From positions 1 through 64,000 of the forward strand of contig NZ_JADKYP010000001.1 in assembly GCF_015354405.1 (NCBI RefSeq): a stretch of DNA of 64,000 bases. The letters run 5' to 3'. This DNA is from Nocardia sp. BSTN01. Lineage in GTDB: Bacteria; Actinomycetota; Actinomycetes; Mycobacteriales; Mycobacteriaceae. The position numbers and the translations under genes are program-made. Under the pieces are notes generated by a model that did no database searches, was not told the origin of the DNA, and saw nothing but the letters and a program-made list of their open reading frames with translations. Positions 37,608-44,571 of the stretch are shown in pieces. Position 1 is the first letter of the stretch. Each line of letters starts with the position of its first letter.

Positions 37608-37925
37608 CCGTATGACTCCCTGCCTCGCATCGATGCCCGCCTCGATAGATCAGCCTGATTGTGGCAGACTTCACGCGACGTCCGGGCGGGCGCCGCGACC
37701 TTTGATTTTGGCTGGAACAGCCAGGTCAACGGCTGGTGGTTGCCAAGAGGTCACACAAGAAGTTATTGATCCGTTAGAATCGCATGTCACCTATTTCGGC
37801 CGTCATGGACGCAATTTCTCGGCCAGCCGCAGTTCCCGGCCCGTTCTGCTTATCGAGCCGCGCGTGCGATCGTGGAGGCTCGCCGATGGCGCGTGGCTGG
37901 GGCCAGTTTGGAAAGTGAGTTGGAG
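37608..37925. other. 318-nt divergent region between prpE and the conservon
   Basis: It contains a TAGAAT -10 candidate at 37775-37780 for the conservon, an imperfect hairpin TGGCTGGAACAGCCA near 37709-37723, and the prpE upstream region. No coding frame with good codon use. Confidence 0.45.
37775..37780 (+). promoter_or_regulatory. Candidate -10 of the conservon
   Basis: TAGAAT, 146 nt before the ATG of the sensor gene. The -35 is unclear. Confidence 0.3.
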
Positions 37926-40900
37926 ATGCGTGACGCCGCTAGGCCCGTTGGGAAGCGCTGGGCGCTCGGCAACTGGGACCTGCGCTGGAAGGTTACGGCC
38001 GTGCTGGCCGTGCCGCTGCTCGTCGCGGTGGTACTCGGTGCTTCCAGGATCGCGTCCGAGTTCAGTGACTCGAGCCACCTGGATCAGGCGGTCGAGCACG
38101 TCGAGGCGATTCCGGCCGTCACCGGCCTGAGTGGTGCCGCGGCCACGGTCGCCGGTGGCCAGATGGCCGCGATCAGCCCGACCCAGTCACTGGTTCAGGA
38201 CGCGGACCTGACACGACTGGACGGTGCCATCCAGACCGCGCAGAAGGCCACGGCCAAGCTGGACGGCGTTCCGGGTGCGCGCGATGCGATCGAGCAGATG
38301 ATCAAGGGCGCCCAGACGGTGCGCGACCAGGGCACCAAACCCTCGCCGGTCCTCGCCGACGCGATCGCCCAGGAAGAGGCGATCCGCCAGAACAGCGTCC
38401 GCACGGTCGAGGAGATCGTCTCCACCATCTCCGACCCCGGCGTCGACGCGGCGAAGCTGCGCCTGGTCGACTCGCTGAACACCCGCGCGGTGATGGTCCA
38501 GGAGATCGCGGCCTCGGCCAAGACCCTGACCGGTGACGCCAAGGGCGGTCTGCACGACTTCCAGGTCGCCGGCAACACCGAGAAGTACATGCTGGACCTG
38601 CTGGCCAAGCGTCTGCCCGAGAACGATCCGACGATCGCCGAGCTGAACGGCTTGCTGCAGAACCGGATCACCATGACCAGCGGGCCGAACGTCGACGTCG
38701 GTCAGCTGCCGCTGATGGATATCAAGCAGTCGCTGGTCGACAGCCTGAACGGCTACACCAAGATCGTCGGTTCCTCGACCCAGGACATCACGTCGCGAGT
38801 GAACGACCTGGCCGGTAACGCCCGGGCCGGCGCTATTCAGTACGCGGTCATCGTCGTCCTGACGATTCTGGCCGCGCTGATCTTCGCCGTGCTGGTGGCG
38901 CGGGCCATGATCGTGCCGCTGCGCAAGCTGCGCCTGGCCGCGCTGCGCGTCGCCGAGCACGACCTCGGTTACGAGGTCTCGCGCCTGCGTGACGGCGCCA
39001 GCCCCGAGGATGTGCCGCTCGAGCCGATGCCGGTGCACACCGAGGAAGAGGTCGGCCAGCTCGCTCGCGCGGTCGACGACATCCACGGTCAGGCCCTGCG
39101 CTTGGCGGCCGACCAGGCCTCCATGCGTACCCAGGTCAACGATATGTTCGAGACCCTGGCGCGCCGGTCGAAGTCGCTGGTCGACCATCAGCTCTCGCTG
39201 ATCGAGGCGATGGAGTACGACGAGAAGGACCCGCGCCTGCTGGAGAACCTCTTCCGGCTCGACCACCTCGCCGCCCGTATGCGCCGAAACGGCGACAACC
39301 TGCTGATTCTGGCCGGTACCCGGCAGCGGCGCAGCAAGTCCGCGCCGGTCGAGATCGCGGACGTGCTGCGTGCCGCCATCTCCGAGGTCGAGGACTACGA
39401 GCGCGTGAAGCTGGGCGCCACCCCGCGCGGCGCCATCACCGAACCGGCCGCCTCCGACCTGGCGCACCTGTTCGCCGAGCTGCTCGACAACGCGCTGCGC
39501 GCCTCGCCGCCGGAGACCGACGTCAAGTTCACCTTCGCCCAGGCCCACGATCAGGGTCTGCTGATCGAGGTCGCCGACCGCGGTATCGGTATGCCGCCCG
39601 CGGAGATGGCATCGATCAACCGGCGCCTGGAAACGACCGCCGAGGTCGGCGCGGACACCGCGCGCCACATGGGTCTGTTCGTCGTCGGCCGGCTGGCCGA
39701 GCGGCACGGCCTCAACGTGCGCCTGCGCCCGACCTTCGACACCGCCCGCGACCCGGGCGTCACCGTCACCGTGCACGTGCCCAAGGCGATCATCGTGGCG
39801 CCGTCGGGTGGAGTGGTCTCGCTGCCGGATCAGTCCGGTGAGCAGGTGTCGGTGCCGCCCCAGCGGCCGTCCGCGGCGTCGTCGATGCAGATGCGCGGCG
39901 TCACCCGGACCCCGAGCGGCAACATGATGGTCACCGTGGATCCGGGCGTGAGCGGGCCGATTCCGATCACGCCGGCCGCGGATGCCGGCGACGACCGTAC
40001 GGTGCGCACCAACGGTGCCGCCGCGGCGGCGAACGGTTCGGCCGCGGGCGGACTTCCGCAGCGCCAGCCGGGCGGTGCGGTTCCGGGCGGCCTGCCGCAG
40101 CGGCAGCCGGGCGCCAACGGGCCGACCGCGCGTCATCCGCTCGCCGATGCCGAGCCCGGCACGGGCTTGCCGCAGCGTGAGCCGGGTGCCAACGGACCGC
40201 AGGCGCCCAAGGCGCAGCCGAACGCGAATCTGCCCCAGCGCGGCGGCTCCGCTACGGCGCAGCCCACCTCGGGTCTGGCGGCCAATATGCTCAAGCGTCA
40301 GCCGGGTGCGGCGGGTCAGCCGCCGCGGCCGGGCCGTCCGACGGGACTGCCGCAGCGGCCGCCGGCCGGCGGTAACGGCCTGTCGCAGCGCGAAGGCGGT
40401 CTGCCGCAGCGTGATTCGGGCTCGAGCCTGCCGCCGCGCGAAGGCGGTCTGCCGCAGCGCGGTGGCTCCGGCCTGCCGCCGCGTGCGCCCGCCGGTGAGG
40501 ACCGCCCCGCGGCGAGCCTGCCGGCCCGCGAACTCGGCGCCAACGGCCTGCCGCAGCGGACTCCCGGCACGAACGGCGCCCCGGCGCGCGAGGGTGGCCT
40601 CCCGCAGCGGGAATCCGCGAACGGTGGCCTGCCGCAACGGGAACCGTCCAACGGCGACCTGCCGCAGCGCGGCGCCGGAGGCGGCCTCCCGCAGCGGACC
40701 CCGGGTTCCAACGGCGCGCCGTCGCGCGAGGGTGCGCCCACCGGTCTGCAGCGCGATGGCGGCAGTGGTCTGCCGCAGCGGGACACCGGTAACGGCCTGC
40801 CGCAGCGGGACGCCGGTAACGGCCTGCCGCAACGGGATTCGGGCAGCGGTCTGCCGCAGCGCGGTGCCGGTGGCGGACTTCCGCAGCGTGAGGGCATCGG

Positions 40901-41561
40901 CGGACTGCCACAGCGCGACGCCGGAAGTGGTCTGCCGCAACGAGAGTCGAATGACGGTCTGCCGCAGCGTGCCCCGTCCACCGGCGGTCTGCCGCAGCGG
41001 CAACCGGGCGCCGGTCTGCCGCCGCGGCCGGAACCCACCCCGGGGCTGAGCCTGCCCGGACGTCATGCGCCGCAGCGGGACAGCTCCGCCGCGGACGCGA
41101 ATGCGGAATCCGGTGAGGGTCGGGAACGCGGCCGTCACAGCTACCGGTCGAACCCGCAGAAGACGGCCTCGTTCTTCCAGACCCGGCTGCAGCCCGCAGC
41201 CGACGCCGGCCCGTCGGAAGGGGGGAGTCCGATCTTCGCCGAGATGATGTCGGCGTGGCTCGCGGACCCCAACCCGGACCGGTCCCAAGTCGCCGCCTCC
41301 TTCGAATCCCCAGGTGACGAAGGCTGGCAGGCTGCCCGGCGGGCAGTGGAAACCTCGTCGGAGAAGCGGACGGCGGCCGGATTGCCGCAGCGCGATCCCG
41401 GTAATCGGCTGGTACCCGGTGGCGTCACCGGGCGGGCCGATCGGACGCCGAGCCGCGACCCAGAGTCGATCAGGTCAAGTCTGAGTCGTCACCAGCAGGG
41501 CGTCCGGGATGGCCGCGCAATGGGAGCAATGAACCTAACCGGAGATAAAGGAGACCGATGA
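37926..41561 (+). CDS. cvnA: Conservon sensor ATPase (CvnA-type, Rv3365c-like) with LPQR repeat tract
   Basis: 1211-residue membrane sensor. TM1 is at ~22-40. An extracellular nitrate/nitrite-sensing-like helical domain spans ~45-300, with TM2 at ~304-328. HAMP and a dimer helix follow ([20 protein letters not shown]), then a HATPase_c domain with N-box [17 protein letters not shown] (~512-525) and G-boxes VADRGIGMP and [14 protein letters not shown]. From ~709 to 1040 is a repeat tract with LPQR occurring 21 times (plus one near 1153). It ends in the conserved tail [34 protein letters not shown] at 37926, four-gene operon, ATGA overlap with the next gene. It lacks a standard H-box, as in conservons. 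Confidence 0.9.
40053..41030 (+). repeat. LPQR-coding repeat tract
   Basis: About 1 kb of imperfect repeats of GGL/NGL/SGL-PQR plus 3-12 spacer residues (ESANGG, DTGN, QPGAN). There are 21 exact LPQR copies here and near-copies LSQR, LPPR and LPAR. At DNA level the core is CTGCCGCAGCG(G/C). The composition is Gly, Leu, Pro, Gln and Arg. Confidence 0.92.
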
Positions 41562-41971
41562 ACCCCGATCTAGGTGGTACGAACCGTCAGCTGGATTGGC
41601 TGGTTTCGAACTTCGCCAACGAGGTTCCGGGCGTCGCTCATGCCGTGCTGGTTTCGGCGGACGGCCTGTTGATGGCCGCGAGCGCTCAATTGCCCGTCGA
41701 CCGTGCCGAACAGCTGTCCGCCGTGACCGCAGGTTTGGCCAGCCTCTCTGTCGGCGTTTCGAACCTGTTCGAAGGCGGCACGGTACTGCAGTCCGTGGTC
41801 GAGATGGAACACGGTTACCTACTGCTCATGGCAGTCGGTGACGGGTCCTATCTGGCCGTGCTGACGAACACGTCCTGCGATATCGGCCAGGTGGGCTACG
41901 AGATGGCCCTGCTGGTCGAGCGGGTGGGCCAGACAGTCCAGGCCACACCTCGCGTCACGATGGGTTCCTGA
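41558..41971 (+). CDS. cvnB: Roadblock/LC7 domain protein (CvnB)
   Basis: 137 residues forming one Roadblock/LC7 domain ([21 protein letters not shown], ...[25 protein letters not shown]). Such proteins regulate small GTPases; in conservons this subunit works with the GTPase CvnD. ATG at 41558 overlaps the sensor stop (ATGA). Matches Rv3364c. Confidence 0.93.
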
Positions 41972-41978
41972 TGGTGGG

Positions 41979-42353
41979 ATGGACATAGACAACCAGCACG
42001 TGGGGAGCGCCGAGCCCAGCCTCGTCCGTCCGTACTCGCTGACCGCCGGTCGTACGCGGCCGACGGTGGAGTTGGCATTGGAGGCGCTCGTCGCATCGCA
42101 TCCGGTCGCCCTAGAGCGGCAGTTCGAACTGACCAACATCGAGACGTCAATCGTGGAGTTGTGCAGAGAATCGCCATCTGTTGCGGAACTTGCTGCCCGA
42201 CTGGGTATTCCGATCGGGGTGGCTCGAGTGCTCGTCGCCGACCTCATCGAGGCGGGACATGTTCGAGTTTCGGCGACTTTGAAAGACGATTCGAGCGACG
42301 ATGAACGTCGCGAGCTGATCGAAAGGGTTCTCAGTGGACTCCGGCGTATTTGA
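41979..42353 (+). CDS. cvnC: DUF742 HTH-like protein (CvnC)
   Basis: 124-residue DUF742 protein: LVRPYSLTAGRTRP, then a winged-helix-like part ETSIVELCRESPSVAELAARL and IPIGVARVLVADLIEAGHV. ATG at 41979. Its 3' end overlaps cvnD by 20 nt. Third member of the conservon (Rv3363c-like). Confidence 0.92.
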   Translation: MDIDNQHVGSAEPSLVRPYSLTAGRTRPTVELALEALVASHPVALERQFELTNIETSIVELCRESPSVAELAARLGIPIGVARVLVADLIEAGHVRVSATLKDDSSDDERRELIERVLSGLRRI

Positions 42354-42936
42354 TTCGACGGCCCAGGTCGATACCCGCAACGCCAAGCCGACCTCCGCGA
42401 AGATCGTGGTGGCCGGTGGCTTCGGTGTGGGTAAGACGACCTTGGTCGGTGCTGTATCGGAGATTGTTCCGCTGCGCACCGAGGCTTTGGTGACCAACGC
42501 CAGTGTGGGCGTCGACAGCCTGGCCGCCGTGCCGACGAAGGCCACCACCACGGTGGCCATGGACTTCGGCAGGATCAGCCTCGCCGACGATTTGGTGCTT
42601 TATCTGTTCGGCACACCCGGCCAGTACCGCTTCTGGTTCATGTGGGACGACCTGATTCGCGGCGCCATCGGGGCGGTAGTGCTGATCGACACCAGACGGC
42701 TCGAGGATTCCTTCGCCGCCGTCGACTACTTCGAGGCTCGTGGACTGCCGTTCCTGGTGGCCATCAACGAGTTCGACGACGCACCGCGGTACCCCCTGGA
42801 GGACATCCGCCAGGCGCTGGCCGTCCCGGCGGACGTGCCGATCATGTCGATCGACGCGCGCCGCCGTGAGCCGGTGAAGCAGGCGCTGGTCTCGGTCACC
42901 GAGTACGCGCTGCGCAAAGTGGTTCAGGGTTACTGA
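42334..42936 (+). CDS. cvnD: Conservon GTPase (CvnD)
   Basis: 200-residue Ras-like GTP-binding protein. Walker A is GGFGVGKTT (28-36), switch II/G3 FGTPGQ, and the G4-like motif AINEFDD, with DARRREPV near the C-terminal end. It acts with CvnB as a membrane-associated switch. GTG at 42334, overlapping cvnC by 20 nt. Matches Rv3362c. Confidence 0.93.
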   Translation: MDSGVFDSTAQVDTRNAKPTSAKIVVAGGFGVGKTTLVGAVSEIVPLRTEALVTNASVGVDSLAAVPTKATTTVAMDFGRISLADDLVLYLFGTPGQYRFWFMWDDLIRGAIGAVVLIDTRRLEDSFAAVDYFEARGLPFLVAINEFDDAPRYPLEDIRQALAVPADVPIMSIDARRREPVKQALVSVTEYALRKVVQGY

Positions 42937-43029: not shown

Positions 43030-44571
43030 GTGAAGATCTCGGCGCGTGAGTTTTTCGACGGTGTGCTCGATCCCGGTTCGTATCGCAGCTGGGATCGAGA
43101 ACCGATCGAGGTGACCACTGCGCCGGCGTATCGCGCGGAACTGACCGCCGCGGCCGAGCGCAGCGGCACCGACGAATCGGTGCTGACCGGTGAGGGACGG
43201 TTGCGCGGGCGGCACGTCGCGGTGATCGCGTGTGAATTCGGCTTTCTCGCCGGATCGATCGGCGTGGCGGCCGCCGAGCGGATCGTCACCGCCGTCGAAC
43301 GCGCCACCGCACTGGGTCTGCCCCTGCTCGCCTCGCCCACCTCCGGCGGAACCCGCATGCAGGAGGGCACGGTGGCCTTCGTGCAGATGGTGAAGATCGC
43401 GGGCGCGGTGGCCGCACACAAGTCGGCCGGCCATCCCTATCTGGTGTATCTGCGCAATCCAACGATGGGCGGGGTGTTCGCGTCCTGGGGTTCGCTGGGG
43501 CATATGACCTTCGCCGAACCCGGAGCGTTGATCGGATTCCTGGGGCCGCGGGTGTACGAGGCCCTCTACGACCGGCCGTTCCCCGAGGGCGTGCAGACCG
43601 CGGAGAACCTGTACCGCAACGGGGTCATCGACGGGGTGGTGCCGGTCCGGTTCTTCCGCCGGATCGCACACCGCGTGTTGAACGTCGCGATTCCCATTGC
43701 GGGCCAGGCGAATTCGCGACCCCTCGCTACATCCGCGCAGGCCGACCGAGCGGGTGCGCCGGGTGTGGGTCGAGTGGGCTCGCCGGGCGCTGAGGGAGCC
43801 GATACACCGGCGTGGGAGTCGGTGTTGATCTCCCGGGATCCCCGGCGCCCTGGCATTCGGGAGCTGTTGCGGCAGGCGACCGATCGGGTGCCGTTGAGCG
43901 GTACGGGGCAGGGGGAATCCGACCGCACCGTCGTCCACGCCCTGGCCCGCCTGCGTGGCGAGCCGTGCGTGATCTTCGGCCACGACCGGGCCGGCCAGAC
44001 CGGTGAGAACACCATGGGGCCGGCGGCATTGCGCGAGGCGCGCCGCAGTATGCACCTGGCCGCCGAACTTCGTATCCCGCTGGTCATGGTCATCGATACC
44101 GCGGGGGCGGCATTGTCGCAGGAGGCCGAGGAACGCGGCCTGGCCCCGGAAATAGCCCGTTGCCTGGCCGATCTGGTCACGCTGGATACGCCGACCGTCT
44201 CGGTTCTGCTGGGGCAGGGCACCGGCGGCGGCGCACTGGCGCTCCTTCCCGCCGACCGGGTCCTCGCCGCGACCCACGGCTGGCTGGCTCCCTTACCACC
44301 GGAAGGCGCCAGCGCCATCGTCTTCCGGGATACCGACCACGCGCCGGAACTCGCCGCCGCCCAACGAGTCGTCGCGGCCGACCTGCTCGCCGACGGTGTC
44401 GTCGACCGCATCGTCGCCGAGCGACCCGACGCTGCCCACGAACCGATCGACTTCTCCCGCCGCATGGTCGCCGCCATCGCCGGGGAACTCGGGGGCTTGC
44501 GAACACGGCCGACAGCCGAGCTGCGCGCCCTTCGCCACCGCCGCTACCGTCGGCTGGGCGTTCCCGGCTGA
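43030..44571 (+). CDS. accD3: Acyl-CoA carboxylase carboxyltransferase, fused beta-alpha type (AccD3-like)
   Basis: 513 residues with two crotonase-fold halves: beta-like ~1-225 (SPTSGGTRMQEGTVAFVQM, TMGGVFASWGSLGH, FAEPGALIGFLGPRVYE) and alpha-like ~255-500 (FGHDRAGQTGENTMGPAALR, VMVIDTAGAALSQEAEERGL, LLGQGTGGGALALLPADRVL). They are joined by a ~45-residue disordered linker (near 236-270). It transfers carboxyl from biotin to an acyl-CoA. It matches Rv0904c AccD3 in M. tuberculosis. There is no zinc finger, unlike E. coli AccD. GTG at 43030. Confidence 0.85.
   Translation: MKISAREFFDGVLDPGSYRSWDREPIEVTTAPAYRAELTAAAERSGTDESVLTGEGRLRGRHVAVIACEFGFLAGSIGVAAAERIVTAVERATALGLPLLASPTSGGTRMQEGTVAFVQMVKIAGAVAAHKSAGHPYLVYLRNPTMGGVFASWGSLGHMTFAEPGALIGFLGPRVYEALYDRPFPEGVQTAENLYRNGVIDGVVPVRFFRRIAHRVLNVAIPIAGQANSRPLATSAQADRAGAPGVGRVGSPGAEGADTPAWESVLISRDPRRPGIRELLRQATDRVPLSGTGQGESDRTVVHALARLRGEPCVIFGHDRAGQTGENTMGPAALREARRSMHLAAELRIPLVMVIDTAGAALSQEAEERGLAPEIARCLADLVTLDTPTVSVLLGQGTGGGALALLPADRVLAATHGWLAPLPPEGASAIVFRDTDHAPELAAAQRVVAADLLADGVVDRIVAERPDAAHEPIDFSRRMVAAIAGELGGLRTRPTAELRALRHRRYRRLGVPG

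Follow-up and report, generated by a model that had tools for sequence, protein, structure and literature searches.

A conservon locus with a repeat array in its sensor kinase

The window analysed here is a stretch of 64,000 nucleotides from Nocardia sp. BSTN01 (positions 1 to 64,000 of contig NZ_JADKYP010000001.1). It contains four successive genes whose products matched HATPase_c, Robl_LC7, DUF742 and ATP_bind_1 in Pfam, the gene layout of a conservon (Table 1). On the basis of these matches, the locus beginning with the gene at 37872-41561 was assigned as a cvnABCD conservon with a CvnA-type kinase, in agreement with the original prediction from the sequence alone. The fourth gene was designated cvnD following the gene order of published conservons. 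The start codon of cvnA was taken as the listed GTG, and the true start may lie slightly downstream. The open reading frame at 43030-44571, which follows the conservon, presumably encodes a protein resembling acetyl-CoA carboxylase carboxyltransferase.

Table 1. Features of the conservon locus and of its sensor kinase (positions in the window)
Feature	Position	Strand	Description
cvnA, conservon sensor histidine kinase-like protein	37872..41561	+	1229 aa; open reading frame, HATPase_c match, HAMP below cut-off
HAMP region	38892..39077	+	residues 341-402; below the Pfam cut-off
HATPase_c domain	39453..39788	+	residues 528-639; Pfam
LPQR array	40053..41000	+	21 exact LPQR and variant LPxR copies; linker predicted to be unstructured
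Conserved C-terminal tail module	41136..41558	+	residues 1089-1229; three short predicted helices (low-confidence model); alignment A1
Last LPQR	41382..41393	+	position of the conserved C-terminal LPxR of the family (available text of PMC4316618)
cvnB, roadblock/LC7 protein	41558..41971	+	PF03259 (Robl_LC7); candidate motif partner
cvnC, DUF742	41979..42353	+	PF05331
cvnD, conservon small GTPase	42334..42936	+	PF03029 (ATP_bind_1) match

A recount of the motifs in the kinase gave exactly 22 LPQR, 21 in the array and one in the conserved tail that follows it, so that the number, the places and the preserved tail were all as originally predicted. Twenty of the 22 copies are GLPQR, and the total of LPxR motifs is 27. 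Degenerate copies are also present in the tract, including LPPR (three times), LPAR, LSQR, LQR and LKR among others. The spacing of 3-12 residues given in the prediction had to be corrected, as the first 20 inter-motif gaps range from 5 to 35 residues and seven of them exceed 12; a regular repeat of 9-10 residues was found only in the last block, with motifs at residues 967-1040.

The array was far beyond chance expectation. Shuffling the composition of residues 721-1060 (20000 shuffles) yielded 0.05 LPQR on average and never more than 2, compared to the 21 observed, and an origin as a chance product of composition was ruled out. A DNA-level element was also rejected, as codon choice in the motif is close to that in the remaining linker (CTG, 0.63 vs 0.57; CAG, 0.87 vs 0.91); the exceptions were Arg CGT (0.46 vs 0.22) and Pro CCG (0.83 vs 0.68), both higher in the motif. 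The third candidate discarded was a genome-wide repeat. A degenerate DNA pattern for GLPQR gave 83 matches in the 7.79 Mb genome, 20 in cvnA and the rest scattered, and no second cluster of the pattern was detected elsewhere in this genome. The other 63 matches were regarded as background because the reversed control pattern gave 80.

An AlphaFold model of residues 628-1229, built on a shallow alignment of 17 rows, showed the array without secondary structure and three short helices in the tail, with a mean pLDDT of 43 for the whole model. In the monomer model of the short-tailed relative L280 (39 rows), the kinase was predicted confidently, the LPxR motif fell in a low-confidence stretch (pLDDT about 52), and a C-terminal helix was placed at residues 396-419. 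As the confidence is low and the array alignment shallow, these models are consistent with, and do not by themselves establish, disorder of the array and the motif. A search of solved structures with a profile of the kinase plus tail (28 sequences) gave best stretches that reached no further than profile position 318 and lay within the kinase. Separately, a block of 25 residues in the interval between kinase and array (residues 672-696; 39885-39959) consisted mostly of invariant columns in 17 Nocardia rows and was modelled as beta strands with modest confidence.

The repeated unit corresponds to the LPxR signature of conservon kinases

Wuichet and Sogaard-Andersen (2014; PMC4316618) described an LPxR that is conserved in the extension at the C-terminus of conservon kinases, and called its Arg notable. 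Judged by sequence comparison, the unit of the array is the core of this signature, a relation to the whole kinase family that had been missed in the prediction. The kinase of the window belongs to the same family and has the C-terminal extension and the fixed-Arg core, and its last copy at 41382 lies within the shared tail profile at the published place. The available text of that paper describes the motif and not an array, while the window kinase carries 22 LPQR (27 LPxR), mostly in the linker upstream. A search of open-licence papers likewise found no description of an LPxR array. The LPxR motif is thus already known, and what is new is its copy number in the array.

Conservation of the motif was evaluated with alignment A2, in which 39 of the 42 prepared rows were used (L278, which has no LPxR, L298 and L299 were left out). 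The Arg was identical in all 39 kinases and the L and P in 37, with the middle residue free. With a profile of the last 141 residues (alignment A1), relatives were detected in 15 of the 31 genera sampled from the family and in 23 of the 103 sampled from the class. The 47 loci outside Nocardia carried GLPxR-x-P-x-x-x-L-V-P-G or a sequence close to it, and between 1 and 15 LPxR were counted in the stretch retrieved for each, although the presence of LPxR in these relatives is not independent evidence since the search profile contains the motif. One or a few copies are usual in the family, without being a defining trait. The window kinase has 27 LPxR, whereas the median among the 67 sampled kinases with CvnB downstream is 2. 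In one genus, evolution has thus increased the number of tail motifs by a factor of about ten or more, and this suggests that the motif makes a functional contact. In two other families, the kinases L247 (f18) and L293 (f17) each have nine LPxR behind the kinase domain.

Distribution of the array in Nocardia

In contigs of named Nocardia, the kinase core of the window had matches with as much as 99% identity, and a match was found in all 149 Nocardia genomes, in collections that hold about one genome per species. Copies were counted in the genus, as had been suggested with the prediction. All 31 near-closed genomes, defined by five contigs or fewer and therefore less prone to assembly error, carry the array with 8 to 42 LPQR (median 24), and near relatives differ in number. 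The 80 named Nocardia loci comprised 48 whose C-terminus was intact, which had 12 to 34 LPQR (median 24), 30 cut by a contig end and two with a broken frame. The array had been called unusual, on the understanding that one motif at one copy number in most conservon sensors of the genus would make it an ordinary family feature. It is not unusual within Nocardia, and its presence in 31 of 31 genomes brings it close to an ordinary feature of the genus; the motif is indeed genus-wide, but the copy number is not the same. A paralogous conservon kinase in the same genome (L208) has two LPxR.

Of the 30 contigs ending inside the gene, 28 ended no earlier than residue 676, either within the array or immediately ahead of it, showing that draft assemblies often break at the array and hence often miss it. 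In the two draft genomes with a broken frame (L042 and L060), the break is located inside the array and reflects either an assembly error or a real frameshift.

Rapid turnover of copies and purifying selection on the motif

Near relatives showed large differences in copy number, with 21 vs 25 LPQR at 99.4% kinase identity and 42 vs 22 at 93.5%, and some indels between them corresponded to whole 9-residue units. The array copy number changes quickly, and it appears to have grown and shrunk across Nocardia.

The L, P and R of the Nocardia motif copies are under purifying selection. Nine disjoint pairs from Nocardia were compared: the motif L/P/R codons differed by 245 synonymous and 52 amino-acid changes and the spacer codons by 888 and 767, respectively, in pairwise alignments that may favour motif-to-motif matching. 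Amino-acid change affected 5.3% of the motif L/P/R but 13.7% of the L/P/R elsewhere in this linker. Five single-pair tests with the window gave three significant results (p 0.013, 0.001 and 0.002) and two non-significant ones (0.16 and 0.23).

On a tree of CvnB-C-D, high copy numbers were seen in g20 (10-13 LPxR), g27 (11-15) and Nocardia (20-48). The group g31 (2 LPxR) was sister to Nocardia, and g10, g22 and g23 (3-6) were near g27. The genus g29, which we take to be Mycobacterium, had 2-3 LPxR in its five loci on this tree. Nocardia and g27 were placed apart with low-copy groups between them, on a tree where some deep nodes are weak. This topology calls for three gains, or for two gains with one loss, and indicates that LPxR was amplified in two or more lineages within the family; the minimum is given as two and not three, since a gain before the split of g20, g31 and Nocardia followed by a loss in g31 fits the tree equally well. 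Outside this family, 11 kinases of f19, presumably a Streptomyces-like family, had 0-5 LPxR and no array.

The fast change in copy number agrees with one part of the prediction, a tract that expands and shrinks by slippage. Simple slippage of an inert tract is insufficient as an explanation, because the motif codons resist amino-acid change. We accordingly consider it improbable that the array is an inert linker growing and shrinking by replication slippage or recombination: the quick variation and the whole-unit indels would suit such a linker, but the codons gain synonymous and few amino-acid changes, the motif is family-wide, and the array occurs in more than one lineage.

LPxR co-occurs with CvnB

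Kinases were sampled by the kinase domain only, which gave 115 matches in 12 genomes. We examined 85 of these together with L211 from another genome (86 loci), and subsequently the 25 weakest matches; the window itself, three matches at contig ends and G516:C378 were left out of the sample. Three of the 86 loci were set aside, two with a broken frame (L238 and L227) and one with a masked stretch (L248). LPxR was present after the kinase domain in 65 of the 67 kinases with CvnB downstream, compared to 10.3 expected from shuffling, and in 59 of the 67 it was located within the last 150 residues. By comparison, the motif was found in five of nine kinases with CvnC/D and without CvnB, and in two of seven kinases without any conservon neighbours. 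The 25 weakest matches all had CvnB, and 23 carried LPxR (2.4 expected). When pooled, 88 of 92 kinases with CvnB (12.7 expected by shuffling) and seven of 16 without it had the motif (Fisher 1.6e-6, a value not corrected for relatedness, the orthologous loci in this count not being independent).

The same survey bears on the possibility that the docking partner of the motif is not CvnB but CvnC (DUF742) or a protein from outside the conservon, which we judge unlikely. Its persistence in five of the nine loci with CvnC/D and without CvnB would be explained by such a partner, as would the interaction of CvnA9 with CvnC9 (PMC8510531, available text). On the other hand, the other four of those nine loci lack LPxR, and the motif is kept in three of three loci where CvnB was found and no CvnC or CvnD (L255, L259 and L277), as well as in L310. 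The five retaining loci also mean that CvnB is not singled out by co-occurrence. A mutual-information scan looked in CvnB, CvnC, CvnD and the kinase for residues that vary together with the motif type, and it favoured no partner.

In seven loci (L237, L267, L273, L307, L308, L211 and L213), no CvnB, CvnC or CvnD was found within 3 kb downstream, and the tails of these kinases are only 8-85 residues long.

The array as a probable docking tail

Multivalent docking on a conservon partner, among the functions put forward in the prediction, is the best-supported reading, with partner, affinity and effect inferred. We propose, at a probability of about 0.5, that the array forms a disordered tail on which conservon partners dock at many sites, the roadblock protein CvnB being the most likely of them. 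The LPxR signature would have been amplified in the long and probably disordered linker that joins the kinase domain to the C-terminal tail, each LPxR serving as a docking site for CvnB or a CvnB/C/D complex. With 20-48 copies, the tail could tether the switch multivalently and so concentrate it locally at the membrane sensor. The principal site may be the last copy together with the helices flanking it, and the array would extend it by adding avidity. CvnA9 has been reported to interact with CvnB9 and CvnC9 (PMC8510531, reporting Komatsu 2006), and in mycobacteria the CvnB homologue acts as a GAP on the conservon GTPase (PMC9769811; PMC13343842), both according to the available text of these papers. 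Taken together with the co-occurrence, these reports make docking of LPxR on CvnB or its complex the simplest account.

A different role would be a catalytic one, in which the Arg of LPxR acts in trans on CvnD in an arginine-finger-like or GAP-assisting manner and the array multiplies this activity. The Arg is the invariant position in the 39 aligned kinases, and the available text of PMC4316618 describes Group 2 MglA/MglB as lacking a conserved arginine finger and cautiously notes the LPxR Arg in this connection. This role is nevertheless quite unlikely. MfpD, the mycobacterial CvnB, alone stimulates MfpB and its Arg mutants change nothing (PMC9769811, available text), which shows that GAP activity in vitro does not depend on the kinase tail and weakens the idea accordingly. 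In addition, L and P vary hardly more than R, as suits a docking motif.

Regulation of the kinase by its own tail, with LPxR docking on the kinase or its dimer partner, has in its favour that the two are parts of one chain. It is hardly probable, as the L280 monomer model leaves the motif in its low-confidence stretch after the confident kinase, and five of the seven kinases without conservon neighbours lack LPxR.

The proposal in the prediction that an Arg-rich tract binds anionic lipid or forms condensates appears very improbable. Residues 721-1060 contain 36 R+K, which speaks for this proposal, but also 23 D+E, and Asp or Glu directly follows 592 of the 974 LPxR motifs in 31 Nocardia genomes. 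Charges therefore alternate in the tract, and acidic residues adjoining the motif weaken both forms of the proposal. Selection moreover favours L and P as well as R.

Relation to known conservon systems

The window locus can be compared with conservons studied elsewhere. The mycobacterial mfp conservon (MfpB, C, D and E; PMC13015309 and PMC9769811) has the same gene order and families as the window, and its MfpD (CvnB) is the GAP for MfpB (CvnD) (PMC9769811). Unlike the kinase tail of the window, the C-terminal extension of MfpE is described, in the available text of PMC13015309, without notable sequence conservation. In the window, an mfpA-like gene was not apparent immediately behind cvnD. 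Cvn8 and Cvn9 of Streptomyces coelicolor likewise consist of a CvnA kinase with the partners CvnB, C and D, for which a membrane complex model has been presented (PMC13343842 and PMC8510531, available text). How conservon kinases talk to the GTPase module is regarded as an open question (PMC13343842, available text). The array makes the function of the already described LPxR motif directly testable, and a repeat peptide would be a simple and sensitive reagent for finding the partner of the motif. If the docking reading is true, the array would be a bacterial example of signalling tuned by short-linear-motif valency.

More tentatively, the Nocardia sensor may be a multivalent scaffold, in which 20-48 LPxR on a disordered tail gather many roadblock/GTPase complexes. 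A one-to-one receptor would thereby have become a signalling hub with its gain set by copy number, a state possibly reached independently in at least two lineages. The genome of the window contains seven roadblock genes and seven kinase matches, so there is no excess of roadblock genes that could occupy the array. In one sampled conservon (L332), two successive CvnB matches follow the kinase.
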